From the NCBI GenBank assembly GCA_030062745.1, contig CP099846.1:29161201-29225200 (forward strand): DNA of 64,000 nt, in the 5' to 3' direction. Source of the DNA: Capitulum mitella. Its lineage: Eukaryota > Arthropoda > Thecostraca > Pollicipedomorpha > Pollicipedidae. The translations under genes and the position numbers were made by a program. The notes beneath the pieces are model-generated. The model searched no databases, was not told where the DNA came from, and saw only the letters and a list, made by a program, of their open reading frames with translations. This document shows positions 14,133-62,510 of the stretch, in pieces. The number at the start of each line of letters is the position of its first letter. The first letter of the stretch is position 1.

Positions 14133-16366
14133 ATGGAACATGCCAGCCGTGCCAAGCTGGTAGATCATCATCTGCGTCTTCTCGAACTTGAGAAAGCAGA
14201 AGAAATCATTCGCGACAAAAACCGTCAGGATCCGATCACGCTTGTCGTAGCTTCCGAAGCTGTCGGCAAACGGCACGGCCTCGACACGCTTGTCGTAGCT
14301 TCCGAAGCTGTCGGCAAACGGCACGGCCTCGAGCTAGTATTGCGTTGTCCGGGACACATGGAACCGCGCCTTCCCAAACACCACTTAAAAGTAAAGGATC
14401 CTGTGACTGTGACGGCCCAGCAAAATAGTGTCCATCAGTCGGCGTGCACGGACCCCAAGTGCGCCGTGGTGTTGCGGCTCAACAAATCAGAGCTGACGCT
14501 GTTCTTCCGCCGGAACCCAGAGCTGAAGCAGGGGCAGCTGGTCGACGTGGCGCTAGCTCCCATCGATGTAATTGGCCGGATGCAGGCGGCGCTTAAGCAG
14601 CTGCGGTCGGGCCTGGCCGGGCCAGCGCAGCATCTGCAGGCCGCTCTGTCCGCCGAGAGCCTGCTGGAGCCGCCGGCGCCGCGGCTGCCGCCGCAGCCGA
14701 CGGCCGGCTGCGGCTGATCGACGCTCGCCTGAACGAGTCCCAGCGGCAGACGGTGGAATTTGCACTGCTCCAGACGAGGCTGGCCATCATTCACGGCCCG
14801 CCCGGCACCGGCGGCAAGACCACCGTCTTGGTCGAGACGATCTTGCAGCACCTGCGACTGGGGCAGCGCGTGCTCGCGTGTGCTCCGTCCAATGCGGCCG
14901 TGGACAACATGGTAGAGCAGTTGGTGGCAGCTCGTTGTGACGGCTTGGTGCGGATTGGTAACCCAGCGCATGTCAAGGAGTCACTGAACCAGTTCACCTT
15001 GGACGCACATATTGACAGGTTCATCGCCAGCGACCCGGAAGAGGACTGCAAGTGCCATTTCCTCATGAAAATTGACGATTTAACAAAAAAAGACGCTGCA
15101 TTAAGCGCGCAGCGACGGGATGTGCAAGAAAAGGTGCTCAAACAAGCGCGCGTAGTGCTGGGTACACTGACAAACAGCCTTTTGATCCCCAGCTCAGAGG
15201 AGAAGGATATATCACCAGTTGGCAACCCATTTTTGTACCAGCTGCAGCTGGAGGAGATCTCTGAAGAAGATGCATTCACTGAGCCAGAATCATTTCAGAC
15301 ATTATTGCCGGGAGCCATGGGGGCGCTGCAGAGTCTCAAGCTTACAGACCGGATGGCAAAGAGTCGCAAGGAGGCAGTGCCAGCCATCCCGTCCGACCTG
15401 CTCGTGATCGACGAGTGTTCTCAGGCGTTGGAGGCAGCTTACTGGGTGGCAGTGCCACACGTCGGCCGACTGCTGCTTGCCGGCGACCCCTGCCAGCTGC
15501 CGCCAACAATCCTCAGTCAGACAGCCGCCGCCCAGGGCCTGGCCGTGTCGCTGATGGAGCGCCAAGTGAAACTGCACGGCGACTCGGCCGCACGCAAGCT
15601 CACCACCCAGTACCGGATGCACGTGCTGATCCAGCGCTGGTCGTCGGAGCGGCTGTACGGCGGCCGGCTGGAGGCGGGGCCGACCGTGCGCAGCCGCCGG
15701 CTGGCCGAGCTGCCGGGCGTACGGGAGACGGAGGACACGAGTCCGACTCTGCTGCTGGTCGACACGGCCGGCTGCCGGTTGGCCGAGTCACGCGATTTAA
15801 AGACCAGTTCTCTCTGCAACGAAGGTGAAGCGGACATCGTGGTGGCTCACGCGCGCACGCTGCGGGAAGCTGGGCTGTCCGTGGACACGATGGGCATCAT
15901 CACGCCCTACGCCCGGCAGGCGAGCCTGATCCGAGAGAGACTGCGCCATCTGCAGCTGGCCGTGGAGGTGAACTCGGCGGACGGTTTCGAGGGCCGCGAG
16001 AAGGAGGCCGTGCTGCTGTCGCTGGTGCGCTCCAACCGGTGCGGCCAGATCGGCTTCCTGGCCGAGGAGAGACGCCTCAACGTGGCCGTGACTCGCGCGC
16101 GCCGCCAGCTGATCATCGTCTGCGACACGGCTACCGTCGGCGTAAGGAAACACCTCCATTCTCTGGTAGAGCACATGAGGGCGCACGGCGAGGTGCGCTC
16201 TGCGCAGCGGTATGAGAGCGACCTGGGGCCGGCGGCGATTGCACGCAGAACGATCGTGGACGACATTGCCATGGCCGCGAGCCGCCTTACGAGTATGAAG
16301 ACGGACGCCGGCGAGTCCACCAACACTGACGGAGCTGGCAGTAAGTACACCAACACTGACCAGTGA
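14133..16366 (+). CDS. IGHMBP2: IGHMBP2/SMUBP-2-like DNA/RNA helicase, frameshifted, possible pseudogene
   Basis: UPF1-like superfamily 1B 5'-to-3' helicase, known from vertebrate IGHMBP2 to bind nucleic acid and associate with ribosomes. The start is an ATG in a good context (ACCATGG, 14133) and the N-terminal LLELEKAEE matches the family start. The first frame ends at 14717; the helicase core continues in another frame through 16366, so one shift lies within about 14650-14715. Numbering from the Met at 14753: P-loop GPPGTGGKTT (15-24), APSNAAVDN (45-52 region), VIDECSQALE (218-227), GDPCQLPPT (244-252), QYRMH (286-290), DGFEGREKEA (410-419), VAVTRARR (444-451). Oddities are an extra Gly in the P-loop, a 16-residue duplication near the N-terminus, roughly 55 extra residues before VIDEC, no introns, and no R3H or AN1 domain. 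Homology is certain. Whether it is a live gene, a retrocopy or carries assembly errors is open. Confidence 0.85.
14238..14333 (+). repeat. 48-bp perfect tandem duplication in IGHMBP2-like frame
   Basis: Two adjacent 48-bp copies (14238-14285 and 14286-14333) differ only at the last base. Each adds 16 codons including LVVASEAVGKRHGL, keeping frame. Near identity implies a recent event. Confidence 0.9.
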
Positions 16367-16700
16367 CCAAGCGAGCAGTGAGTCCGCAAACACTGACCCA
16401 ATCAACAGTGAGTTCGCCAGCACCGATCGAGCCAACAGCAAGTCCACCAGCACTGACCAAGCGAGCAGCGACTCCACTAAAACTGATCAAGGGAACCAAA
16501 TGAGTCTACCGACACTGACGAAGCTTATGTGGAATATGCTCCAATTGCGCCCTCCAACACTGCCCAGGCTAGCAGTGTGTGGATCAATTCCGACCAAGCT
16601 AACGTAGAATCTGCTGGCAGGAGACATGCCATCACTGATCAAAGTAACAATGAGTCCACCAACACTGACCTAGACGGCAATGAGTCCACTCTCATTGGTC
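16309..16700 (+). repeat. Degenerate ~33-bp tandem repeat at and beyond the helicase C-terminus
   Basis: The phrase CCAACACTGACC and variants (GCAAACACTGACC, CCAGCACTGACC, CCACTAAAACTGATC) recur every 31-37 bp from 16319 to about 16520 and again near 16655, interleaved with GAGCAGTGAGTCC-like spacers. The first copies encode STNTD in the helicase frame before its stop at 16364-16366; the rest lie in the 3' flank. Confidence 0.65.
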
Positions 16701-34628: not shown

Positions 34629-35700
34629 TCAGTAACTAATGTTCGACATGACCAGCGAATTGACCACGTATGCGATAATGTCAAATGATAACCTGTCTTT
34701 GGCGTGTGATAGAGTTAAAAGCATACCTGTGCATTTATCTATCAACTGGCCATTATGAGCATGAAACGTGAGATACCTATCCATGTTCAGCCCAAGATTC
34801 TTCACGGTTTTGCTTTCAGGCAAAACTGAATAACCAAATCTAGCGTGAACCTCCTGAAACCCTCGCAACATACTTCTATAGCCAACCACAGTCAGCTGAG
34901 TCTTGGCGGTATTGACTTGAGAGCCAGTCGGAGGTGCTACTTGCGTGCCTTCTTCAGTTTAGCTGTGAGTTGGTGTATGCCCTGTTCTTTCCTGGGACCA
35001 AAAATTGGGTGTCGCAGACTAAATGGTTGCGTCGTGAGAATTAAGGGACAAGTCATTTGAAAAATATGGAAAAAGGAGCGGCCCTAATGACGTGCCTTGA
35101 TAAACTCCAACAGTGTTCGGGAGCGAAGACAAGACGGCGACTGTACCACTGGTGTCTCGGACACGGATTTGTTGCGTATAACTATGAAGATCATTTGTTA
35201 ACCCTCCGCGTCGATGTTGTAGTGCCCAAGCTTTGCCAGGCGTACGTAGTGATCATTTAAATCAAAACGTTTTGAAAGATCAATCAGGACTAGAAGCGTA
35301 ATTTCAGTTTGGTCCATGGAGATTTAAACTCTTTCGGTCACTTCTGTCAAGGCTGTCTCAATCGAATGATGTGTCTGATAGGCATGCTGGGAATAACAAA
35401 AGAAGTCATGACGAGGAAAATACATGTAAAGCTGGTAATGAACGACACGTTCAAGAGTTTTCGATGTTGCGGAAACAAGTGAGATTGGCCTGTATTTGGT
35501 TGGGTCGCTAATGTCACTGGTTTTAGGAAAAGGTGTAACGAAAGCATGTTTCTTTTGGGTCGGTACAAGTCCAGTGATAAGACTTAAGTTGGTTATTCTC
35601 AAAAGAGCATGCCCAATGAAAAACAAACTATTTATTAAAAATTTCTGAAGGAGCTTGACGCTAACACCGTCATCCAGAGGCGTCGATTTGTATTCTTTTT
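34629..35700 (-). mobile_element. LINE reverse transcriptase fragment (CR1/L2/Jockey-like)
   Basis: Minus-strand reading gives ITNLSLITGLVPTQKKHAF and DPTKYRPISLVSATSKTLER (palm start, about 35600-35450), then VLIDLSKRFDLNDH near 35280, SLGPLLFPYFSNDL near 35060, and VKNLGLNMDRYLTFHAH (thumb, near 34790). The order and the YRPISL, D-L-S-K-x-F-D and SLGPLLF motifs are those of non-LTR RTs of the CR1/L2/Jockey group. The frame is broken by several shifts and stops, and the catalytic DD is degraded (HDATI at that position). No endonuclease part is adjacent. Confidence 0.8.
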
Positions 35701-43894: not shown

Positions 43895-44549
43895 TCACGA
43901 CTTGTTGAAGTTGCCCTGCAGCATGCGCTGGTACGCCTCGACGCTGGCCTGCGCCTGCTCCTTGGTCATGCCGGGCATGCCGGGCATCATGGTCATGCGC
44001 TGCGCCATGAGGCCCTGCAGCGCCATCTGCTGTTGCGCGCGATGCAGCTGCTCCAGACCGGCCGCCTTGCCCAGCGCCGGGAAGCCAGCCATGTACTGCA
44101 GCATCTGCGGCGGCAGCGACGTGCTGGCCATGTGGAGTGCCATCAGCTGTTCTACGGAGCCGAGCGGGGCGGCGGCCGCCGTCGGCGCCTTCTCCACCGG
44201 CGTGATGGTGATTGAGCCGATCCGGGTGGGCTTGAGCAGCGGCCGGGCGGTGACGGCGGCCGGCGCGCGCGGCCGCTCGGCCGGCTCCGGTCCGGTCGTC
44301 AGGTCGATCACCTCGATCTCGGCCGACCGCGGCCGCACCGCCGCCGGCGCCGCGTCCGCGCGCGGCAGCGGCGTGATGGTGATGGCGGGCCGCGCCTGGA
44401 CCAGCGCCGACAGCGCCGACGGGCCTCTCGGCGCCGGCTCCGACGCCGGCCGCCGGGCCGACGGCCCTGCGGCCGGCGGCCCCACGGCCCACTCTCCCGT
44501 GTGAGGCTCCGGCAGGCCGCGGTCGTACCTCTCGAAGGGCAGACAAAGC
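43895..44549 (-). CDS. ARID5B: ARID5-like exon 8 (terminal coding exon)
   Basis: The acceptor CTGCAG precedes 44549. The exon completes the ARID with LCLPFERYDR, then a low-complexity Pro/Ala/Met/Gln-rich tail containing IEVIDLTTGPEP (SUMO-interaction-like VIDLT) and ITITP repeats (twice), and stops with TGA at 43895-43897. The 3' UTR continues GC-rich towards 42.7 kb. Confidence 0.88.
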
Positions 44550-47500
44550 CTGCAGGGAGGAAGTCAGGCGTCAGACATCAGACGACGTCCGACAGCGGCC
44601 GACTTAAGACGTCAGGCGTCTGGCGTCAGACGACGTCCGACAGCGGCCGACTTAAGACGTCAGGCGTCAGACGTCGGATGACGACAAGCGCTTCATGTCA
44701 GACGACGTTAAGCGTCAGAATGCTCCGCAGACAAAAACGCACGAGCAAAGGGCCCGAGGAGAAGACGGCCTGGGCCGCCAGCAGCCGTGACCCCCCCCCC
44801 CTTGCGAGGGCTGCGAAGCCGCAGCTCCGCCGGACACTGATGACAGATACCCATCTGTTACGTGTTGCACGGTCGGCGGAGGCCGGTCCTCCAGGCAGCG
44901 CCGGGTGCGGTTGGGCTCCGCCGTGTTAGACCCAGGAGGCAGGTCCGGTCAGGTCAGGTCACGTCATGTCATGTCATGTCAGGTCTGATCAGATCAGATG
45001 TTAGCATACCAGGTCCGGTTAGGGTGGGTCGGTCCGAGTAACATCAGGTCGGGTTGGGCCATGCTAATACGTATAAGGTCAAGCTAATGCAGCCCAAGTT
45101 AGGTTACGTCAGGCTAACTTCAGTCAAGTTGGGCCGGGCCAGGTCGGCAGGCCGCTCACCTCTCGAAGCAGCGCCGGGTGCAGGTGGCCGCCGCCGTGTT
45201 GTTCGGACTGCCGCCCATCTCGTCAAACACCTGCTTCCAGAGGCGGCGCACGCACACCGCCTGGTAGCCGCCCAGCTCCTGGACGCGCCGGTAGAACCGG
45301 AACAGGCTCACTGCAACGGCCGGCGGCGCTCAGTGGGCCCCGGACAGGCGACCGCCACGCGCCCGCGCCAACCACCAGCCGGCATCGGCGCAGACGGACA
45401 AACAGAATGACGCAATGAAAGACAATGATTAGCTGTTTTTTTACGGAGCAATAAATACTACACACGTGCATGGATCCCACTGGAATGCATATTGTGCCCG
45501 TTTTGTACTGAGCCCTCGCTGACCTAGGAGTGTCACTACCTAACCTCGGAAAGGCCGTGTCCCGCCGGAGCAAAGCGGTGCCACGGCGACGCAACATTTA
45601 CCCACGCTAACTCAGAATCCGACGCAACACGAGGAAAATCTGTGTTATAAAGAGATCGAGGCACATGTCTGTTGAATATCCAGTCATTTGGCGAGACAGA
45701 AACAGAGAGACGGGCACATACAAATGCAGAGACAGAGACAGAGACAGCGAGACAGAGATGGAGACAGACAGGCCAACAGACAGACACAGGCAGGCATGCG
45801 AACAGGCCGGGCCACTAACGGTGCTGCAGGCCCCAGCTGGGAAGCCGGTTAATGGGCGAGCCGCGCTGGCTCATAAAGTGATGCAGCCGCTGCAGGAACT
45901 CCTTCTCGCCCCAACGCCACGACTTGAGCTGGTGCAGCGGCTTTCCGGCCGAGCTCAGGCCGCGCAGCAGGGTCGGCTTCCGGTGGAGAGCGCCGGCCTC
46001 CAACGGCAGCCGCACCTGCCCGCGCACGGCCGGTCAGATCAGGTCAGGTCAGGTCAGGTCAGGTCAGGCCGCCGCGCCGTGGGCACACCACAGGTGGGCG
46101 GCGGCCAGCTGGCCGGCGGCGGACGACGCGAGGTCGGCCGGCGGCTGGGCGCTGGGTGGCGCCAGGCCGGGACCGCACGGCCATACGAGGCCTCCAGTTG
46201 AGCGGTCGCCACTGCGGAGCACAGCGTAGAAACGAGGACGGCAGCGAGGCCACAGCCTGCCGCGGAACGGCCGGGAACTGGCGGCAGACGACGGTCACCA
46301 GTCCCCTCCCACTCCGAGCCGACAGCCCACAGTCCCCTCTTCCCTCCCCGTCACAGCGCACCCCCGCACCGCGGCCCCGGCCGGACCAGCTGCGTCCCCC
46401 CAACACTGACCACGGCTGGCGACGGCTTCAGCTGGCCCGTCTCCGTGTCGGACGTGGACTCGGAGCCGGGCGACGAGCTCTCCCGCTTGGCCTTTTTCCG
46501 ACTGCGGCCGCGCAGCTTCGGCGCTGAAACAGGGCGGCGGCCCGGGTCACGGCCACGGCTGGCGTAACGGACAGCGGGGTCACAGATGACCGTCTGGATT
46601 TCACATGCCGGGGTCACAGCTGACCGTCTGGGTCACGGACACGCTCCTGGCGCTTATCGCTCTGGAGCAGATCATGTGAGCAATGCGACCAGCAACGGAG
46701 CGAAATGTGGTGAAATGAAATCAAATGAAAAAATGCAACAAGGAAACGCGGAACGACCAACACGTCACATGAAGCGGCATGGACAACACCGGGGAATGTC
46801 GTAACACGCAACGGGAAACCTACACCTGTGATCGCGTCCAGGCTACGCATGACCGGCCACTCGTCGTCTGGCCACACGACTGCCCCCCCCCCCCCCACAC
46901 AACACACATCGGCGCATCCTCCACGAGCCATTCTTCACTCCTTTCGACGTGTGCCGGTCATGCGTGACCTAGACACAGGCGGAGCCCCCATCCAGAGCCG
47001 CTCGCTTCATTCCCGCGTGCACAGCCTCGTGTGACCAGGCACACGGTGACATCACAGATGTCCAGACGCGATGACACGACTGCAGACGTCTGCGGCACAG
47101 TCCTACACGTCATACCGCTGAGCCTGACAGCCTGATAGCGCCAGATCGCGAGTCTCGTGACGTCCAGCACCCCTGGCGTGCACGGCCTTCCATTTCATTT
47201 TGACTTAAACGCCTTTTTGGACCGGGGTGAAACCTGTTTTGGATTTTGGATCTTTCTGAATACTTTTGGCCTCAGCTCGAAATACATCCGGTGCCAGAAG
47301 GGTGGGCGCGGGAAAGATGCCACAGGCCCAGAGCCCACATGGGCGTAACGGTTTCGGACCAGGTATCAGGCAAGCTTCGGGCACCGACGGTCCGTCCACC
47401 CGATGCTGAAGCTCCGCGTACCCAGGTGGTTACAGAAGATCTCGTGTCCGTCCAGCTCGGGGTAGTCGAACACGTCTCGACAGTAGAGCAGGCGCGTGTG

Positions 47501-50500
47501 CCGGCTCGGAATTTGCAATCCGCCGAGCGCCTGCACCAGCGAGTGGCCGTACACCCGAGGACTGACCGACTCCAGACTGAAACAGAGACACAGACGCTGT
47601 ACACCCGAGGACTGACCGACTCCAGACTGAAACAGAGACACGGACGCTGCACACTCGAGGACTGGCCGACTCCAGACTGAAACAGAGATACAGACGCCGT
47701 ACACCCGAGGACTGACCGACTCCAGACTGAAACAGAGATACAGACGCTGTACACCCGAGGACTGACCGACTCCAGGCTGAAACAGAGATACAGACGCCGT
47801 ACACCCGAGGACTGACCGACTCCAGACTGAAACAGAGATACAGACGCCGTACACCCGAGGACTGACCGACTCCAGACTGAAACAGAGATACAGACGCCGT
47901 ACACCCGAGGACTGACCGACTCCAGACTGAAACAGAGATACAGACGCTGTACACCCGAGGACTGACCGACTCCAGACTGAAACAGAGATACAGACGCTGT
48001 ACACCCGAGGACTGACCGACTCCAGACTGAAACAGAGATACAGACGCTGTACACCCGAGGACTGACCGACTCCAGACTGAAACAGAGATACAGACGCTGT
48101 ACACCCGAGGACTGACCGACTCCAGACTGAAACAGAGATACAGACGCCGTACACCCGAGGACTGACCGACTCCAGACTGAAACAGAGATACAGACGCCGT
48201 ACACCCGAGGACTGACCGACTCCAGACTGAAACAGAGATACAGACGCTGTACACCCGAGGACTGACCGACTCCAGACTGAAACAGAGATACAGACGCTGT
48301 ACACCCGAGGACTGACCGACTCCAGACTGAAACAGAGATACAGACGCTGTACACCCGAGGACTGACCGACTCCAGGCTGAAACAGAGATACAGACGCTGT
48401 ACACCCGAGGACTGACCGACTCCAGACTGAAACAGAGACACGGACGCTGTACACCCGAGGACTGACCGACTCCAGACTGAAACAGAGACACGGACGCTGT
48501 ACACCCGAGGACTGACCGACTCCAGACTGAAACAGAGATACAGACGCTGTACACCCGAGGACTGACCGACTCCAGACTGAAACAGAGACACGGACGCTGT
48601 ACACCCGAGGACTGACCGACTCCAGACTGAAACAGAGACACGGACGCTGTACACCCGAGGACTGACCGACTCCAGACTGAAACAGAGATACAGACGCTGT
48701 ACACCCGAGGACTGACCGACTCCAGACTGAAACAGAGATACAGACGCTGTACACCCGAGGACTGACCGACTCCAGACTGAAACAGAGACACGGACGCTGT
48801 ACACCCGAGGACTGACCGACTCCAGACTGAAACAGAGACACGGACGCTGTACACCCGAGGACTGACCGACTCCAGACTGAAACAGAGACACGGACGCTGT
48901 ACACCCGAGGACTGACCGACTCCAGACTGAAACAGAGATACAGACGCTGTACACCCGAGGACTGACCGACTCCAGACTGAAACCACGGACGCTGTACACC
49001 CGAGGACTGACCGACTCCAGACTGAAACAGAGACACGGACGCTGTACACCCGAGGACTGACCGACTCCAGACTGAAACAGAGATACAGACGCTGTACACC
49101 CGAGGACTGACCGACTCCAGACTGAAACAGAGATACAGACGCCGTACACCCGAGGACTGACCGACTCCAGACTGAAACAGAGATACAGACGCCGTACACC
49201 CGAGGACTGACCGACTCCAGACTGAAACAGAGATACAGACGCCGTACACCCGAGGACTGACCGACTCCAGACTGAAACAGAGACACGGACGCTGTACACC
49301 CGAGGACTGGCCGACTCCAGGCTGAAACAGAGATACAGACGCTGTACACCCGAGGACTGACCGACTCCAGACTGAAACAGAGACACGGACGCTGTACACC
49401 CGAGGACTGACCGACTCCAGACTGAAACAGAGACACGGACGCTGTACACCCGAGGACTGACCGACTCCAGACTGAAACAGAGATACAGACGCTGTACACC
49501 CGAGGACTGACCGACTCCAGACTGAAACAGAGATACAGACGCCGTACACCCGAGGACTGACCGACTCCAGACTGAAACAGAGATACAGACGCCGTACACC
49601 CGAGGACTGACCGACTCCAGACTGAAACAGAGATACAGACGCCGTACACCCGAGGACTGACCGACTCCAGACTGAAACAGAGATACAGACGCCGTACACC
49701 CGAGGACTGACCGACTCCAGACTGAAACAGAGACACGGACGCTGTACACCCGAGGACTGGCCGACTCCAGGCTGAAACAGAGACACGGACGCTGCACACC
49801 CGAGGACTGACCGACTCCAGGCTGAAACAGAGATACAGACGCTGTACACCCGAGGACTGACCGACTCCAGACTGAAACAGAGATACAGACGCTGTACACC
49901 CGAGGACTGACCGACTCCAGACTGAAACAGAGACACGGACGCTGTACACCCGAGGACTGGCCGACTCCAGGCTGAAACAGAGATACAGACGCTGTACACC
50001 CGAGGACTGACCGACTCCAGACTGAAACAGAGATACAGACGCTGTACACCCGAGGACTGGCCGACTCCAGGCTGAAACAGAGATACAGACGCTGTACACC
50101 CGAGGACTGGCCGACTCCAGGCTGAAACAGAGATACAGACGCTGTACACCCGAGGACTGACCGACTCCAGGCTGAAACAGAGATACAGACGCTGTACACC
50201 CGAGGACTGGCCGACTCCAGACTGAAACAGAGATACAGACGCTGTACACCCGAGGACTGGCCGACTCCAGACTGAAACAGAGATACAGACGCCGTACACC
50301 CGAGGACTGACCGACTCCAGGCTGAAACAGAGATACAGACGCTGTACACCCGAGGACTGGCCGACTCCAGGCTGGAACAGAGGCACAGACGCTGTACACC
50401 CGAGGACTGGCCGACTCCAGGCTGAAACAGAGATACAGACGCTGTACACCCGAGGACTGGCCGACTCCAGGCTGGAACAGAGACACAGACGCTGTACACC

Positions 50501-53500
50501 CGAGGACTGGCCGACTCCAGGCTGAAACAGAGATACAGACGCTGTACACCCGAGGACTGACCGACTCCAGACTGAAACAGAGATACAGACGCTGTACACC
50601 CGAGGACTGGCCGACTCCAGACTGAAACAGAGATACAGACGCTGTACACCCGAGGACTGGCCGACTCCAGACTGAAACAGAGATACAGACGCCGTACACC
50701 CGAGGACTGACCGACTCCAGACTGAAACAGAGATACAGACGCTGTACACCCGAGGACTGGCCGACTCCAGACTGAAACAGAGATACAGACGCTGTACACC
50801 CGAGGACTGGCCGACTCCAGACTGAAACAGAGATACAGACGCTGTACACCCGAGGACTGGCCGACTCCAGGCTGAAACAGAGACACGGACGCTGCACACT
50901 CGAGGACTGGCCGACTCCAGGCTGAAACAGAGATACAGACGCTGTACACCCGAGGACTGGCCGACTCCAGACTGAAACAGAGATACAGACGCTGTACACC
51001 CGAGGACTGGCCGACTCCAGATTGAAACAGATACAGACGCTGTACACCCGAGGACTGGCCGACTCCAGACTGAAACAGAGATACAGACGCTGTACACCCG
51101 AGGACTGACCGACTCCAGACTGAAACAGAGATACAGACGCTGTACACCCGAGGACTGACCGACTCCAGACTGAAACAGAGATACAGACGCTGTACACCCG
51201 AGGACTGGCCGACTCCAGACTGAAACAGAGATACAGACGCTGTACACCCGAGGACTGACCGACTCCAGACTGAAACAGAGATACAGACGCTGTACACCCG
51301 AGGACTGGCCGACTCCAGACTGAAACAGAGATACAGACGCTGTACACCCGAGGACTGGCCGACTCCAGGCTGGAACAGAGACACGGACGCTGCACACTCG
51401 AGGACTGGCCGACTCCAGGCTGGAACAGAGACACGGACGCTGCACACTCGAGGACTGGCCGACTCCAGGCTGAAACAGAGATACAGACGCTGTACACCCG
51501 AGGACTGACCGACTCCAGACTGAAACAGAGATACAGACGCTGTACACCCGAGGACTGGCCGACTCCAGACTGAAACAGAGATACAGACGCTGTACACCCG
51601 AGGACTGGCCGACTCCAGGCTGGAACAGAGACACGGACGCTGCACACTCGAGGACTGGCCGACTCCAGGCTGGAACAGAGACACGGACGCTGCACACTCG
51701 AGGACTGGCCGACTCCAGGCTGAAACAGAGATACAGACGCCGTACACCCGAGGACTGACCGACTCCAGACTGAAACAGAGATACAGACGCTGTACACCCG
51801 AGGACTGGCCGACTCCAGACTGAAACAGAGATACAGACGCTGTACACCCGAGGACTGGCCGACTCCAGACTGAAACAGAGATACAGACGCTGTACACCCG
51901 AGGACTGGCCGACTCCAGACTGAAACAGAGATACAGACGCTGTACACCCGAGGACTGGCCGACTCCAGACTGAAACAGAGATACAGACGCTGTACACCCG
52001 AGGACTGGCCGACTCCAGGCTGGAACAGAGACACGGACGCTGCACACTCGAGGACTGGCCGACTCCAGGCTGAAACAGAGATACAGACGCTGTACACCCG
52101 AGGACTGGCCGACTCCAGGCTGGAACAGAGACACGGACGCTGTACACCCGAGGACTGGCCGACTCCAGGCTGGAACAGAGACACGGACGCTGTACACCCG
52201 AGGACTGGCCGACTCCAGGCTGGAACAGAGACACGGACGCTGCACACTCGAGGACTGGCCGACTCCAGGCTGAAACAGAGACACGGACGCTGCACACCCG
52301 AGGACTGGCCGACTCCAGGCTGGAACAGAGACACAGACGCTGTACACCCGAGGACTGACTGTCTCCAGACTGAAGCAGAGTTGTAGATGCCGTACACCCC
52401 AAGACTGACCGACTCTAGATTGACGGAGATACCGAGGTCAGGCCCAAGACACAGAAGCCACAACTCCCTTTCCGCTTGTGTTCACAGTCTACTTTGAAGT
52501 ACATCACACAAAAACAGAATAAAATGGCGTGCAGTGCGCGGGATTATCAAACAAATATCAACTACCAGAACAAAAAGGGTCAGGCGGACAAGACTCGCTT
52601 CCCGCAATGTATTACAGGTGATAAAAGCTTCAGTCGCCTCTCGGGAAAACATCAGGTATCGCTTCGATCGGCACCTCCATGACTCCTATCAACAGACTCG
52701 TATCATATGGTCACGCCGGCAGCATCACGCGATTTCCGGGAACGTCACTGCCCGTACCGTTTCATGACGCCGCGCAGCCGGCAGTAGTGGTCGTAGCTGA
52801 GCACCAGCGCGCACGGCTCCTCCGGGCCCACGGTGTCCCCTGCAACGGCGAGCGCACCAGTCACTATCGCACTTTTAGCCGACGACCGAACCGTTGGCCT
52901 GCCGCCGACGGTCAGTCGCCGACGTCCAACCGAGGTCACAATGCCACGCAAGAGCACGGGTCGCGTCACGGAGGTCGCAGCATACAGCCGCGCCCAGCAG
53001 GCCCCGCGGCGCCGGCATTCCACTGAAGTCGCGGCACACAGGTCACAACATCCCGCGATGGCCTTCAACGCGCCGCGCGAAGCCGCGCAGTAGCCCGATC
53101 TGAAGCGCCAGTACTTCGCACAAGAGTCAGCCGGCTCTAGCAGCACCGTCCACGCCGCGGCTGCCGAGCACAATCAGGTCCGGTCACGTCATGTCCGATG
53201 GGGATAGGAGTTCCTTTTCTCCCCGCAGTCGGCCTGGGGCTGCGGCCGTGACGGCCGTGTCGAAAACTTGTGCTCCAAAAACATTTTATAGTCTCAAAGT
53301 CCGATCTTGTGCCTCCGTCAGAAAACTACATTTTAACTAAGTTGACATATTTCCAACTATGCAGGCAAATGACTCTGTCCCTATTCACTGAGAAGCAGGT
53401 ATTTTGTCACAACTGACCGACACAAAGAACGTCAATTTAAACCTGTATTACTCCTGGTAAAATTTTGCGCTCCAAAATAAAAATTATTCTCTGCCACCAA

Positions 53501-55350
53501 GAACAAAAACAAATTTCGACAGCTCGGGTCCCGGGGACGCACGGATCCTGCCTGCAGCTCGAACACCCCACTCCCAACCAGAGTCCCGTTCCCCCGGGGC
53601 AGAGCCCGCAGCCCCCTGCCTTCGACACAGCGCCTTCGACACCTTTGTCCGTCTCGGAGCCCTCTTTCCCCTGTCACGGCGCGCACCGCGCGACGTGCAA
53701 CATCGTTCAGGGGCCGACCTCTGGCTCTCTTATCATCTCCGAGATATGCGCTGCTGCGTCAGAGTGCGAGGCGGCTCGTGCTCTGTCCAAAGCGTGCCGT
53801 GCTGCTGACCAGGACCCGTGATTCAGACGACTCCTGAGTCACGGGGCAGGCCAACGGCCGCCTCACACCAAGCATCATGGTCCAGTGGCTTTGAAAATGG
53901 CGTGTAAAACGCCGATTTAATGGATCCAAATGAAATAAAGTGGCAAAGGGTGGTAACGACGTTAAGCAGTTCCAAAAATAACCATGAAGCAACGATACCA
54001 AGCTTTTACCAAACGGGATCTGCCAACTGAATTTTCTCTCTATCAAGTTCAAAACACCAGTAACATGTCTCGAAAAACAAGACCAGAAAAAGAAGCAGAT
54101 GATTCCGGGCCACCTCTCATTTATACTGCATGCTTTCGCTCACATAAATTTGACCGAAAATTTGGCCCAGAAACAATGAAGCTCTTTTCATGCAAGAATC
54201 TGTCGCAAGGATAACGGTTTAACCATCTCAGTAATTCTAACTACAGGCTAATTTTACCTCACGAGCCAAAAGTAAATTAAAATCTGCATAGCGTCCCGCG
54301 ACGGAGATTGTCATGTCATGTCCCGCGACAAAAACACGTCAGCATGAAACAAGTGCCATTCTTCCCTTTGCCACCGGAACTCGTCGTTTCGGAATTCATG
54401 CCGGGGAAAAACAGTTTTTCTGTCTCCCGTCGCCAGCCTCCGTCCGTATTCAGGCTGTCTAGGCCACCCGGCCGCCGGAACGGCACAAGTATCATGCCGC
54501 AACGCACAGTCATCCAGAGACGCTTCAAAACAACGCTAGGTTTGTAAAACAAAACTAACGTAGCGTTAAGAACAAAAAGTTGGTGTTAGAAAAACAGGTG
54601 GCGTGCAACAAATCACAGATTCTTCTTCCTGTCAGCGCATTTTTCCCTTCAGGCTCCCTCTCCCCACGGATGCATACTATTCCCTTCCCGCAGACGCCAT
54701 CTCCCCTATCTCCCTCCAGTGATCGCAGCCTCCCAAGCCATTCCCCCTGTTGGTGTGTTTCCCCCTCTCCCGGGGGCGGCCTCTCTTTTCCACCCTCCCG
54801 GCTGCGACGTTTCCCCCTACACACGGATGCAGTCTTCCCACCATGGGTGCAGCCCCTGCCTCTCAGAGAAGCAATGTCTCGCTCTGGCCGCCAGCTCCAC
54901 CTCCCCTCCCCTCCCCTTTTCTCCAGACGCAGGGTCTACCCTGGCAGTAGATACCATCTCCCCCTCCCACGTCTCCAGACGCAGGGTCTCCCTCCCCCTG
55001 GCCGCAGATGTCGCCCCCACCTCTTCAAACGCCAGGCCTCCCCCTGGCCGCAGACACCACCCTCCACCTCTCCAGACGCAGGCCGCGAGTGCCGGCGCCG
55101 GATGATTCCACAGCGGGCCGGCGCGTTCCCCACCCGACCTACCGAGATGGCGCTTGGTGCGCTCGACGTCGGCCAGGCTGAGGCGGCCGGCGCCGGCGGC
55201 CGCCGCCGAGCAGAAGGCGGCGGCCGGCGCGGCCGGGTCGTGGGCGGCGCCCGCCGCCCAGCCGGCCGACCAGCGCGGCCCGCGCACCACCACGTCCGCC
55301 AGGTCCTCCAGCCGCACCGTCAGCTTCTCCTGCACGGCCAGCACCTCGTC
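43895..55350 (-). CDS. ARID5B: ARID5-type AT-rich interaction domain transcription factor (7 coding exons)
   Basis: Homologue of ARID5A/ARID5B, nuclear factors that bind AT-rich DNA through an ARID helix bundle; vertebrate ARID5B recruits the PHF2 demethylase. Exons on the minus strand: 55143-55350, 52758-52839, 47422-47576, 46411-46523, 45820-46015, 45160-45310, 43895-44549. All junctions are GT-AG and the phases join without a shift, giving about 520 residues. In order it encodes the N-terminal ARID5 homology region (VLSYDHYCRLRGVMKR, LLYCRDVFDYPELDGHEIF), a basic linker (LRGRSRKKAKRE), the ARID (KEFLQRLHHFM, ELGGYQAV, RLWKQVFDEMGG, TAAATCTRRCFER) and a short Ala/Pro/Met-rich tail ending GNFNKS. 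The tail is much shorter than in vertebrate ARID5B. The first exon(s) with the start Met were not found. One intron holds the 4.9-kb minisatellite. Confidence 0.9.
44561..44715. repeat. 48-bp intronic tandem repeat, about 2.5 copies
   Basis: GACGACGTCCGACAGCGGCC begins at 44581 and again at 44629; partial copies flank both. It lies in the last ARID5-like intron. Confidence 0.7.
44943..45150. repeat. Degenerate GGTCA/TGTCA pentamer tract in intron
   Basis: GGTCAGGTCACGTCATGTCA-like pentamers, then looser GGTCGGGTTGGGCC and AAGTTGGGCC variants. Lies just after the donor at 45159. Confidence 0.6.
45160..45310 (-). CDS. ARID5B: ARID5-like exon 7 (ARID core)
   Basis: 151 bp between acceptor TTGCAG and donor GAGAG|GTGAGC. 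Encodes LFRFYRRVQELGGYQAV and RRLWKQVFDEMGGSPNN then TAAATCTRRCFE, the most conserved part of the ARID (helices with LGGY, W-K and S-T/A-A-A-T-C-T-R-R). Confidence 0.95.
45690..45795. repeat. GACAGA-type microsatellite in intron
   Basis: GAGACAGAGACAGAGACAGC and variants, about 100 bp. Confidence 0.8.
45820..46015 (-). CDS. ARID5B: ARID5-like exon 6 (ARID start)
   Basis: 196 bp from acceptor GGGCAG|GTGCGG to donor CACC|GTTAGT. Encodes GEKEFLQRLHHFMSQRGSP and NRLPSWGLQH, the first ARID helix and the following loop. The acceptor is preceded by six CTGAC pentamers. Confidence 0.93.
46033..46067 (-). promoter_or_regulatory. Tandem branch-point-like CTGAC array before exon 6
   Basis: Six CTGAC pentamers on the minus strand (GTCAG on +) put candidate branch adenosines 19, 29, 34, 39, 44 and 49 nt upstream of the exon at 46015. 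CTGAC fits the yUnAy branch consensus. Use in splicing is inference. Confidence 0.45.
46411..46523 (-). CDS. ARID5B: ARID5-like exon 5 (basic linker)
   Basis: 113 bp, acceptor CTGTTTCAG, donor GTG|GTCAGT. Encodes PKLRGRSRKKAKRE then a Ser/Glu-rich stretch. It matches the APNLKGRPRKKK linker of ARID5B, a likely nuclear localisation signal. Its acceptor (CTGTTTCAG) is identical to that in the minisatellite monomer. Confidence 0.92.
46524..47421. other. ARID5-like intron 4
   Basis: Non-coding; includes a polyC run near 46884-46898 and some CpG-rich sequence. Confidence 0.7.
47422..47576 (-). CDS. ARID5B: ARID5-like exon 4, whose 5' end is the last minisatellite monomer
   Basis: 155 bp from acceptor CTCTGTTTCAG|TCTGGAG to donor CCTGG|GTACGC. 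Encodes LESVSPRVYGHSLVQALGG and LLYCRDVFDYPELDGHEIF. It aligns with the ARID5B stretch from KRIQDKP to YCRDTFDHP. The first ~28 bases and the acceptor lie inside the final copy of the 50-bp repeat. The phase fits exon 3 (two bases CG plus T = Arg). Confidence 0.93.
47549..52430 (-). repeat. 50-bp minisatellite, ~98 copies, each a copy of an intron-exon boundary
   Basis: Monomer starts (GTACACCCGAGG on +) fall every 50 bp from 47549 to 52342. Only two small deletions (5 bp near 48985, 2 bp near 51030) break the register, giving 96 units plus two decayed ones. On the gene strand nearly every monomer carries CTCTGTTTCAG|TCTGGAG and the first ~24 bases of exon 4. Variants include GACTGACC/GACTGGCC, CCAGACTG/CCAGGCTG, GATACAGACG/GACACGGACG and CACACTCGAGG. 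No stop codon occurs in any of the three gene-strand frames, and three monomers encode a 50-residue period. It lies in the intron between exons 3 and 4 and runs into exon 4. Confidence 0.97.
52431..52757. other. 5' part of ARID5-like intron 3
   Basis: Unique intronic sequence between the minisatellite and the donor at 52757. Confidence 0.6.
52758..52839 (-). CDS. ARID5B: ARID5-like exon 3
   Basis: 82 bp, acceptor GTTGCAG, donor AAACG|GTACGG. Encodes DTVGPEEPCALVLSYDHYCR then LRGVMK, matching VIVLSYPQYCRYRSMLKR of ARID5B. Confidence 0.92.
52840..55142. other. ARID5-like intron 2
   Basis: Non-coding. A CT-rich stretch at about 54600-55090 contains three or four loose ~48-bp repeats with CTCCAGACGCAGG. 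It lies just inside the donor at 55142. Confidence 0.6.
55143..55350 (-). CDS. ARID5B: ARID5-like exon 2 (first confident exon)
   Basis: 208 bp, acceptor CCGACAG, donor CTCG|GTAGGT. Encodes DEVLAVQEKLTVRLEDLADV, then an Ala-rich stretch and LSLADVERTKRHLG. It matches DEVIAVSEKVIVKLEDLVKW and NFKDVLKEKADLG of ARID5B, with an Ala-rich expansion between. Confidence 0.92.
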
Positions 55351-59167: not shown

Positions 59168-59577
59168 ACTACGCCTTAGCGGTCATAGTTACAATCCCAT
59201 GGATACATGTATTCCACTGCGTCCCTTACCTCCCCCTCCCCCCAAAAAAACAGGTGCCCTAACACTGGCCTCGCATAGCACGGTACCGGCAAAAAGCCGA
59301 CACCTAAGCCGCCTCGGGCCCCTCGGCGACCCAACATCCCGCCCCGGGGCGCCGAACGGACGGCCGCCGGATAGTCCAATCGCTTCGGCCGGCGCCTGTG
59401 CTGCTGTCCTGGGGATCGATCGCGCCGCCCTGCGCCACGCGCCGCACTGCCAGCGGCTCGTCTGCACGGCTCCGCCGGTACGCGGCGCCAGCCCGGACGT
59501 GGGATACGGGGCACGGGGCGCGGGACACGGTCGGCGGGACGGGACACGGGTCACGGGGCAGTGCCGGTTAACGGTTA
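57177..59577. other. No gene recognised; TA microsatellite
   Basis: No ARID5 first exon (GPY-FY-K type motif) was found on the minus strand. A TA/TATG simple repeat lies at 59035-59168. Confidence 0.4.
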
Positions 59578-59990
59578 CAGACCCGACACAGGAGACGGGT
59601 CGGCGAGAGACCGGACACAGAAGACGGGACAGCGAGAGACCGGACACAGGAGACGAGACAACGACAGACCGGACACAGGAGACGGGACAACGACAGACCG
59701 GACACAGGAGACGGGACAACGACAGACCGGACACAGGAGACGGGACAACGACAGACCGGACACAGGAGACGGGACAGCGAGAGACCGGACACAGAAGACG
59801 GGACAGCGAGAGACCGGACACAGGAGACGGGACAACGACAGACCGGACACAGGAGACGGGACAACGACAGACCGGACACAGGAGACGGGACAGCGACAGA
59901 CCGGACACAGAAGACGGGACAGCGAGAGACCGGACACAGGAGACGGGACAACGACAGACCGGACACAGGAGGCGGGACAGTCCGAAGCGT
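59578..59990. repeat. 29-bp minisatellite, ~14 copies
   Basis: Units such as GAGACGGGACAACGACAGAC plus CGGACACAG repeat every 29 bp, with AACGACAG/AGCGAGAG variants. Open frames exist on both strands across it, as expected for a stop-free monomer of length not divisible by three. Confidence 0.95.
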
Positions 59991-62164: not shown

Positions 62165-62510
62165 CGCCAACGCGGCCCGTCCAACACCCAGCCTGAACCA
62201 GGCCCGGAACCCGGCGAGACGGTCCAGCACCCAGCCTGAACCAGGCCCGGAACCCGGCGAGACGGTCCAGCACCCAGCCTGAACCAGGCCCGGAGCCCGG
62301 AGAGACGGTCCAGCACCCAGCCTGAACCAGGCCCGGAGCCCGGCGAGACGGTCCAGCACCCAGCCTGAACCAGGCCCGACACCCACCGAGACGGTCCAAC
62401 ACCCAGTCTGAACCATGCCCGGCACAGACCGAGACGGTCCTACACCCCGCCTGGATCACGGGCGGCATTCACCGCGACGGTCCGAAGACCTAGCCTGGAT
62501 CGGGCCCAGC
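62165..62510. repeat. 43-bp minisatellite, ~8 copies
   Basis: GGTCCAGCACCCAGCCTGAA starts at 62221, 62264, 62307, 62350, 62393, 62436 and 62479, exactly 43 bp apart, with an earlier copy near 62178. Copies decay towards both ends. Confidence 0.95.

Follow-up and report, generated by a model that had tools for sequence, protein, structure and literature searches.

In the barnacle Capitulum mitella, the boundary between intron 3 and exon 4 of an ARID5-type gene is present as about 98 tandem copies of a 50-bp unit, each reaching from the end of the intron into the start of the exon. The gene lies on the minus strand of a 64,000-nucleotide stretch of contig CP099846.1 (assembly GCA_030062745.1, positions 29,161,201 to 29,225,200), which is referred to as the window and whose numbering is used below. 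The array is probably a giant, acceptor-side example of the boundary-spanning repeats known from amphioxus as 'mirages', in which exon definition would select the last acceptor. Joined in phase, the seven exons of the window encode a 519-residue protein that is collinear with ARID5 and contains an ARID domain (E 2.8e-21), with ARID5B as the closest solved relative. It is most similar to an ARID5B-like protein annotated in the gooseneck barnacle Pollicipes pollicipes (P0001; 79% identity over 98% of the 325-residue query) and next to three proteins of Amphibalanus amphitrite, with 65, 63 and 48% identity to the full protein.

Tandem Repeats Finder (TRF) describes the array with a period of 50, 97.6 copies, 95% matches and a score of 8406. 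Together with direct reading of the sequence, this confirms a preliminary description of the same DNA, which had noted an in-register 50-bp monomer over about 4.9 kb of the minus strand; its 5' edge, placed there at 52430, has to be moved to about 52423. The unit consists of approximately 21 nt of the 3' end of the intron, including a polypyrimidine tract and CAG, and approximately 29 nt of the start of exon 4. Counted copy by copy, the array contains 98 acceptor positions. Of copies 1-97, 95 are full 50-mers, copy 28 is a 48-mer and copy 69 is a 45-mer; copy 98 is partial, is continuous with exon 4 and constitutes its first 28 nt. CAG is kept at 96 of the 98 acceptor positions and is replaced by CAA at copies 1 and 29. 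Nearly every copy had been said to keep the block CTCTGTTTCAG/TCTGGAG (the slash marks the splice boundary). This is overstated, because the minus strand contains 65 exact occurrences of the 18-mer and 83 of CTCTGTTTCAG alone, and the exon part starts with C rather than T in 29 of the 94 complete 50-mers among copies 2-97. These 94 copies represent 18 distinct sequences, and substitutions at recurrent sites are transitions, except in copies 1 and 2. The 20-mer of the authentic acceptor occurs at only one of the 98 positions and is unique by a single base, as expected for an edge copy. Ninety-eight ordered copies are not a product of chance. A 93-nt boundary query against the genome (477 Mb, 16 contigs), in a search confined to the best candidates, gave no dispersed copies among the matches listed, all 95 of which fall at C8:29208695-29213623; a dispersed satellite or a transposon-borne repeat was rejected on the basis of these listed matches.

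The authentic start of exon 4 was deduced from homologous proteins and from a paralog. Alignments with P0001, P0002 (from a beetle), P0003, P0004, P0005 and P0006, which are annotated predictions and not proven transcripts, show no insert at the MKR/LES..RVY junction; all six run from MKR or LKR directly into LE..(9 residues)..ALGG. A paralog in the same genome (C1:12035910-12068147) contains the same intron in the same phase 2 (CG/T), and its exon, which starts with LETVSSRVYVHKLVRALGG and encodes LETVSSRVY, is identical to exon 4 at 116 of 155 nt. The corresponding acceptor of the paralog is single, is preceded by a CTGAC with its A 31 nt upstream, and is not associated with a tandem array. 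As neither the homologs contain an insert nor the paralog an array, sequence comparison identifies the last copy as the authentic exon 4 acceptor, and the single-acceptor state is likely ancestral. The initial reading of the repeat as an intron-exon boundary that was amplified within an ARID5-type gene, with the copy nearest the exon supplying the acceptor and the residues LESVSPRVY, is therefore upheld. An ancient genome duplication has been reported for barnacles (PMC11331182). A 475-bp (TC)n tract is located near the donor of the corresponding intron of the paralog (L073 405-879, reverse strand).

The order of the copies retains traces of how the array grew. Adjacent copies are identical in a fraction of 0.347, compared to 0.125 under permuted order, and further identity peaks occur at lags 7 and 8 (z 3.6 and 5.7). 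Variants are locally clustered, and blocks of 7 and 5 units recur at lags of 8 and 5, respectively. Copies at the edges (copy 1, copies 96-97) diverge. Compared to the exon-like unit, the distal tenth of the array is the most divergent (4.5 differences on 8 sites) and the proximal fifth the least (0.9 and 1.4), although the trend is not monotonic. Block repeats and local clustering are as unequal exchange leaves them, and growth presumably occurred by unequal exchange or slippage. Long arrays are generally error-prone, and it could be argued that a real array was inflated in length or suffers from a collapse or expansion error of the assembly. However, 18 variants in non-random order, together with two length variants, do not correspond to the blind concatenation of one read segment, and such an artefact is very unlikely.

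A motif scan detected no TGAC and no yUnAy anywhere in the 4,871-nt array, which is explained if a single founding unit lacked the motif. The nearest CTGAC, at the 5' edge, is separated by 19 nt from the acceptor position of copy 1 and by 4,862 nt from exon 4, with 97 other acceptor positions in between. Exons with distant branch points also have a branch site far from the acceptor, but over at most 400 nt and with an AG-free stretch between them (PMC1431707). Thus, branching at 52438 in the service of exon 4 appears unlikely, and its branch point would rather be a non-consensus site inside the penultimate unit. Several observations weigh against our preferred account of the locus (see below). 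The exon 4 acceptor contains neither TGAC nor yUnAy in the interval -50..-12, while TGAC is found in this interval at 18 of 32 sampled acceptors compared to 145 of 900 random non-coding positions (one-sided Fisher p 5e-7). In addition, the other 95 CAG acceptors carry nearly the same polypyrimidine tract as that of exon 4. The sample comprised 26 acceptors that codon usage predicts at kinase loci and six other ARID5 acceptors, five of which have TGAC at -50..-12 according to our own reading of the motif scan. As yUnAy is also missing at 13 of the 32 sampled acceptors, its lack at exon 4 is not fatal.

The sole consensus branch motif at the 5' edge of the array could also mean that branching at 52438 is active and that the first acceptors are used, which would turn the array into a giant coding exon of up to about 4.9 kb. 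Upstream acceptors are transcribed earlier, and acceptor 3, for instance, leads into a frame that is open through to the normal stop. Nevertheless, each of the three frames of the array has non-coding codon usage (-0.60 to -0.62 log-odds per codon, compared to +0.26 to +0.55 in the exons), the block lags of 8 and 5 are not multiples of three as preservation of the frame would require, and no homolog contains such an insert. Use of the first acceptors is thus extremely improbable. A coding tandem repeat was likewise ruled out by the negative log-odds in all frames, by the lack of any match in the protein database for the 150-amino acid peptide encoded by the array, and by the lack of a homolog with the insert.

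Copies 2-98 are free of stop trinucleotides in every frame. Because 50 equals 2 modulo 3, one third of the acceptor positions are in frame: 32 of 98 (31 upstream acceptors and the authentic one), with 66 truncating, or 32 (31 upstream) and 64, respectively, when only the 96 CAG acceptors are considered. Use of an in-frame upstream acceptor would add about 50 residues per three copies, and the two nearest truncating classes would reach stops within exon 4 and in exon 5. The retained CAGs, the open frames and this split would suit a rheostat, in which splicing to many of the copies would let repeat number tune the output of ARID5, the products being either elongated or truncated, with truncation probably triggering decay. 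Yet 14.6% of shuffled units are stop-free by chance, so the open unit need not reflect selection and says little in favor of such a function; of the 150 possible single substitutions in the unit, 20 create a stop (5 of the 50 transitions), and independent variants are too few for a test of selection against stops. Furthermore, the insert occurs in no annotated homolog, its peptide is without database match, and amphioxus mirages are reported to leave regular splicing undisturbed (PMC3087553, PMC3902484). Judged from these sequence data, a rheostat seems unlikely. More doubtful still is the wider proposal that barnacle genes recurrently bear boundary minisatellites and that the array in ARID5 acts as an inherited splicing rheostat of variable length, in which individual repeat number determines how frequently upstream acceptors are used. 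In that case, repeat number would set the amounts of full-length, elongated and truncated ARID5, and 96 nearly equal CAG acceptors without an internal branch consensus would constitute a natural assay of acceptor ranking by distance.

In our preferred account, a 50-bp stretch reaching from the end of intron 3 into exon 4 would have been duplicated in tandem, and unequal exchange or slippage would subsequently have expanded and partly homogenised the array into a giant mirage on the acceptor side. The copy at the 5' edge may mark the place of the original acceptor beside its branch site, with its AG lost since, while the 3'-most copy, which runs directly into exon 4, is the acceptor that gives the conserved protein. 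Its selection would most likely occur by exon definition, i.e., by pairing of the downstream donor with the nearest upstream acceptor to form the 155-nt exon. Branching would then take place at a non-consensus point in the penultimate unit and the remaining copies would leave with the intron, with some leakage to neighboring acceptor copies.

In amphioxus, mirages were described for the globin genes BflGb6/BflGb9, Adh3, TnC and PGBD5: the repeats extend across an intron-exon boundary, many units contain an AG, edge copies are outside homogenisation, and splicing is regular as determined by reverse transcription polymerase chain reaction (RT-PCR) (PMC3087553, PMC3902484). The barnacle array corresponds to this description in that its unit spans a real boundary, fixed by the homologs and the paralog, in that the splice signal recurs in 96 of 98 copies, and in that adjacent copies have evolved in concert (0.347 versus 0.125) with divergent edges (copy 1, copies 96-97). 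The host is not a cephalochordate but a barnacle, with its nearest proteins in Pollicipes and then Amphibalanus, and we treat this as a wider range of mirages and not as a defining failure. BflGb6 is also acceptor-side with diverging edge copies, but its unit is 150-160 bp long and is present 6 and 3 times in two haplotypes, in contrast to approximately 98 copies of 50 bp in C. mitella. The preliminary claim that no such case had been described is thus not tenable, even though the scale here is still far above that of BflGb6. Further differences are that the barnacle unit lacks a branch consensus and that copies 2-98 are open in all frames; moreover, the splicing outcome in amphioxus was determined by RT-PCR, whereas the barnacle locus is known from sequence alone. 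The array is accordingly of the same kind as the amphioxus mirages and, as far as our searches reach, new in scale, host lineage and anatomy. Its copy number is extreme among the cases for which numbers were compared, which do not include Adh3.

A splice signal is also repeated at an exon boundary in the human interferon-induced gene 6-16, where a minisatellite gives many tandem splice donors, i.e., on the donor side and not on the acceptor side. NAGNAG tandem acceptors are likewise adjacent, competing 3' splice sites, but they consist of two sites 3 nt apart on one branch point (PMC3250501), whereas about 98 sites follow each other at 50 nt here, each with its own pyrimidine tract; this spacing excludes a NAGNAG identity. 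Within the open-access literature, judged by titles and passages, no report of boundary-spanning arrays in barnacles or crustaceans was found, and neither 'tandem' nor 'minisatellite' appears as a word in the Pollicipes genome paper.

Similar boundaries exist elsewhere in the genome. A search for three occurrences of TTTCAG at spacings of 25-54 nt yielded 1,398 matches, from which 19 arrays were inspected: 11 distinct places with TRF arrays among the first 30 loci listed, and eight hand-picked places with multiple matches. An apparent coding exon follows the last acceptor in 10 of these 19 arrays (L049, L052, L057, L059, L068, L078, L079, L080, L081 and L083), and a codon score above 15 was obtained for 5 of the 19 arrays compared to 7 of 127 non-array TTTCAG sites (p 0.0097). 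Firm family matches were found at two of the ten, GPN1 (L057) and a leucine-rich-repeat exon (L083). L057 has a codon score of 14.5, yet is certain, because two of its exons match GPN-loop GTPase 1 ungapped across their junction (E 4.4e-52). At L057 760-1900, two successive acceptors bear arrays, one of 47 bp x 6.2 and one of 40 bp x 3.9, and the donor that follows shows a 71-bp duplication. GPN1 has the same architecture as the ARID5-type gene with a protein that is ungapped through the exon junction, which supports the preferred account. At L083 (G000:C4:1873500-1874150), a 56-bp unit with some 44 nt of exon occurs about 10 times among the matches listed. L081 has only a sub-threshold DUSP match, and the coding assignment of L049, L052, L068 and L080, with low codon scores, rests on the open frame. 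Pfam searches with translated exons of array loci gave no match for four of five in one set and were uninformative for two of five in another, and a search of PDB with the L052 exon returned nothing informative. Among the 11 acceptors of the ten loci, the first 12 nt of the exon recur (at least 9 of 12) in an earlier unit at eight, and TGAC is present at -50..-12 at six. In a kinase gene (L028, 440-1300 and 2900-3300), one acceptor is preceded by an array of 24 bp x 27, and another by an array of 32 bp x 7.9 that contains CTGAC, a pyrimidine tract, CAG and the exon start.

Whether acceptors are preferred sites of amplification was judged from control counts. The number of triple TTTCAG matches far exceeds that of its reversal (148), but is hardly above that of CAGTTT (1,282), with 596 for TTTGAC; the baselines in non-array DNA are 130 for TTTCAG, 74 for GACTTT, 103 for CAGTTT and 117 for TTTGAC. 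For the donor motif GGTAAGT, 28 triple matches compare to 41 for its reversal. At the kinase loci and ARID5, tandem duplicates of at least 20/30 were present at 2 of 36 acceptors (L028 and exon 4), at 35 of 600 random intronic positions and at 1 of 38 donors, with one more, gapped case at L038 detected by TRF. A preference for acceptors was therefore rejected, on a small sample of 36 acceptors, since the excess of TTTCAG over its reversal is undone by CAGTTT, by the baselines and by the lack of duplication enrichment. Without such enrichment, the boundary arrays look like the exon-edge share of a minisatellite-rich genome and not like the result of a targeted process. The ARID5 array may accordingly be an ordinary by-product of such a genome, in which one array happened to include an acceptor and its acceptor content is incidental and without a role. 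TRF arrays account for 7.4% of the 172 kb examined, this 4.9-kb array included, and the control counts point in the same direction, whereas the retention of CAG at 96 of 98 positions is left unexplained, although recent homogenisation would suffice. We lean towards this view, which is compatible with the mirage account and represents its null model for origin.

The locus offers a ready-made experiment on the choice of 3' splice sites, with 96 CAG acceptors, nearly identical pyrimidine tracts, fixed 50-nt steps and one donor on each side. Copy variants label the individual sites in cDNA, and the array-free paralog in the same cells serves as a control. The question posed is whether proximity to the downstream donor, the order of transcription or the quality of the branch point decides which acceptor is used. 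Acceptor arrays at several other genes of this genome suggest that exon edges can be amplified again and again in barnacles without harm, as in amphioxus, where such amplification was proposed as a source of new introns and of exon-edge variation (PMC3087553). Gene predictors and short reads will misplace exon starts at such arrays.

Features of the ARID5-type gene and its array, in window positions
Feature	Position	Strand	Basis	Remarks
Exon 2	55143..55350	minus		DEVLAVQEKLTVRLEDL...
Exon 3	52758..52839	minus	tblastn of P0001	donor GAAACG/gtacgg
CTGAC branch-site consensus	52437..52441	minus		A at 52438; 5' edge of array
Minisatellite	47549..52423	minus	TRF	about 98 copies of 50-bp unit
Copy 1	52370..52419	minus		degenerate; acceptor position CAA; sole stop trinucleotide in the array (TAG at 52417)
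Copy 28	51022..51069	minus		48 bp; ends CAA, so that the acceptor position of copy 29 is lost
Copy 69	48977..49021	minus		45 bp
Exon 4	47422..47576	minus	homologs, array-free paralog	155 nt; R/LESVSPRVYGHSLVQALGG...FCNHL; acceptor CGTCTGTGTCTCTGTTTCAG/TCTGGA, donor ACCTGG/gtacgc
Exon 5	46411..46523	minus
Exon 6	45820..46015	minus		ARID domain begins
Exon 7	45160..45310	minus		ARID domain
Exon 8	43895..44549	minus		with stop codon

The numbering starts at exon 2 because the exon corresponding to residues 6-99 of P0004 is located outside the window (C8:29234765-29235037). Further repeats were observed in the same gene. A pentamer array of the GACCT/CTGAC type (46032-46068, 7.4 copies) stops 16 nt short of the acceptor of exon 6, so that the final 50 nt of this intron contain seven overlapping matches to the branch consensus. 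A 48-bp unit x 2.5 (44563-44683) ends 13 nt before the exon 8 acceptor, which is itself not part of the repeat, and the upstream intron contains minisatellites at 59577-59979 (29 bp x 13.9) and 62179-62497 (43 bp x 7.4). Elsewhere in the window, a reverse-transcriptase-like fragment is present at 35327-35698 (RVT_1, E 5e-5, below the Pfam cut-off), and a long open frame on the plus strand (14597-16363) encodes AAA_11/AAA_12 helicase domains, with a 30-bp, coding-looking repeat just beyond it (16364-16524).

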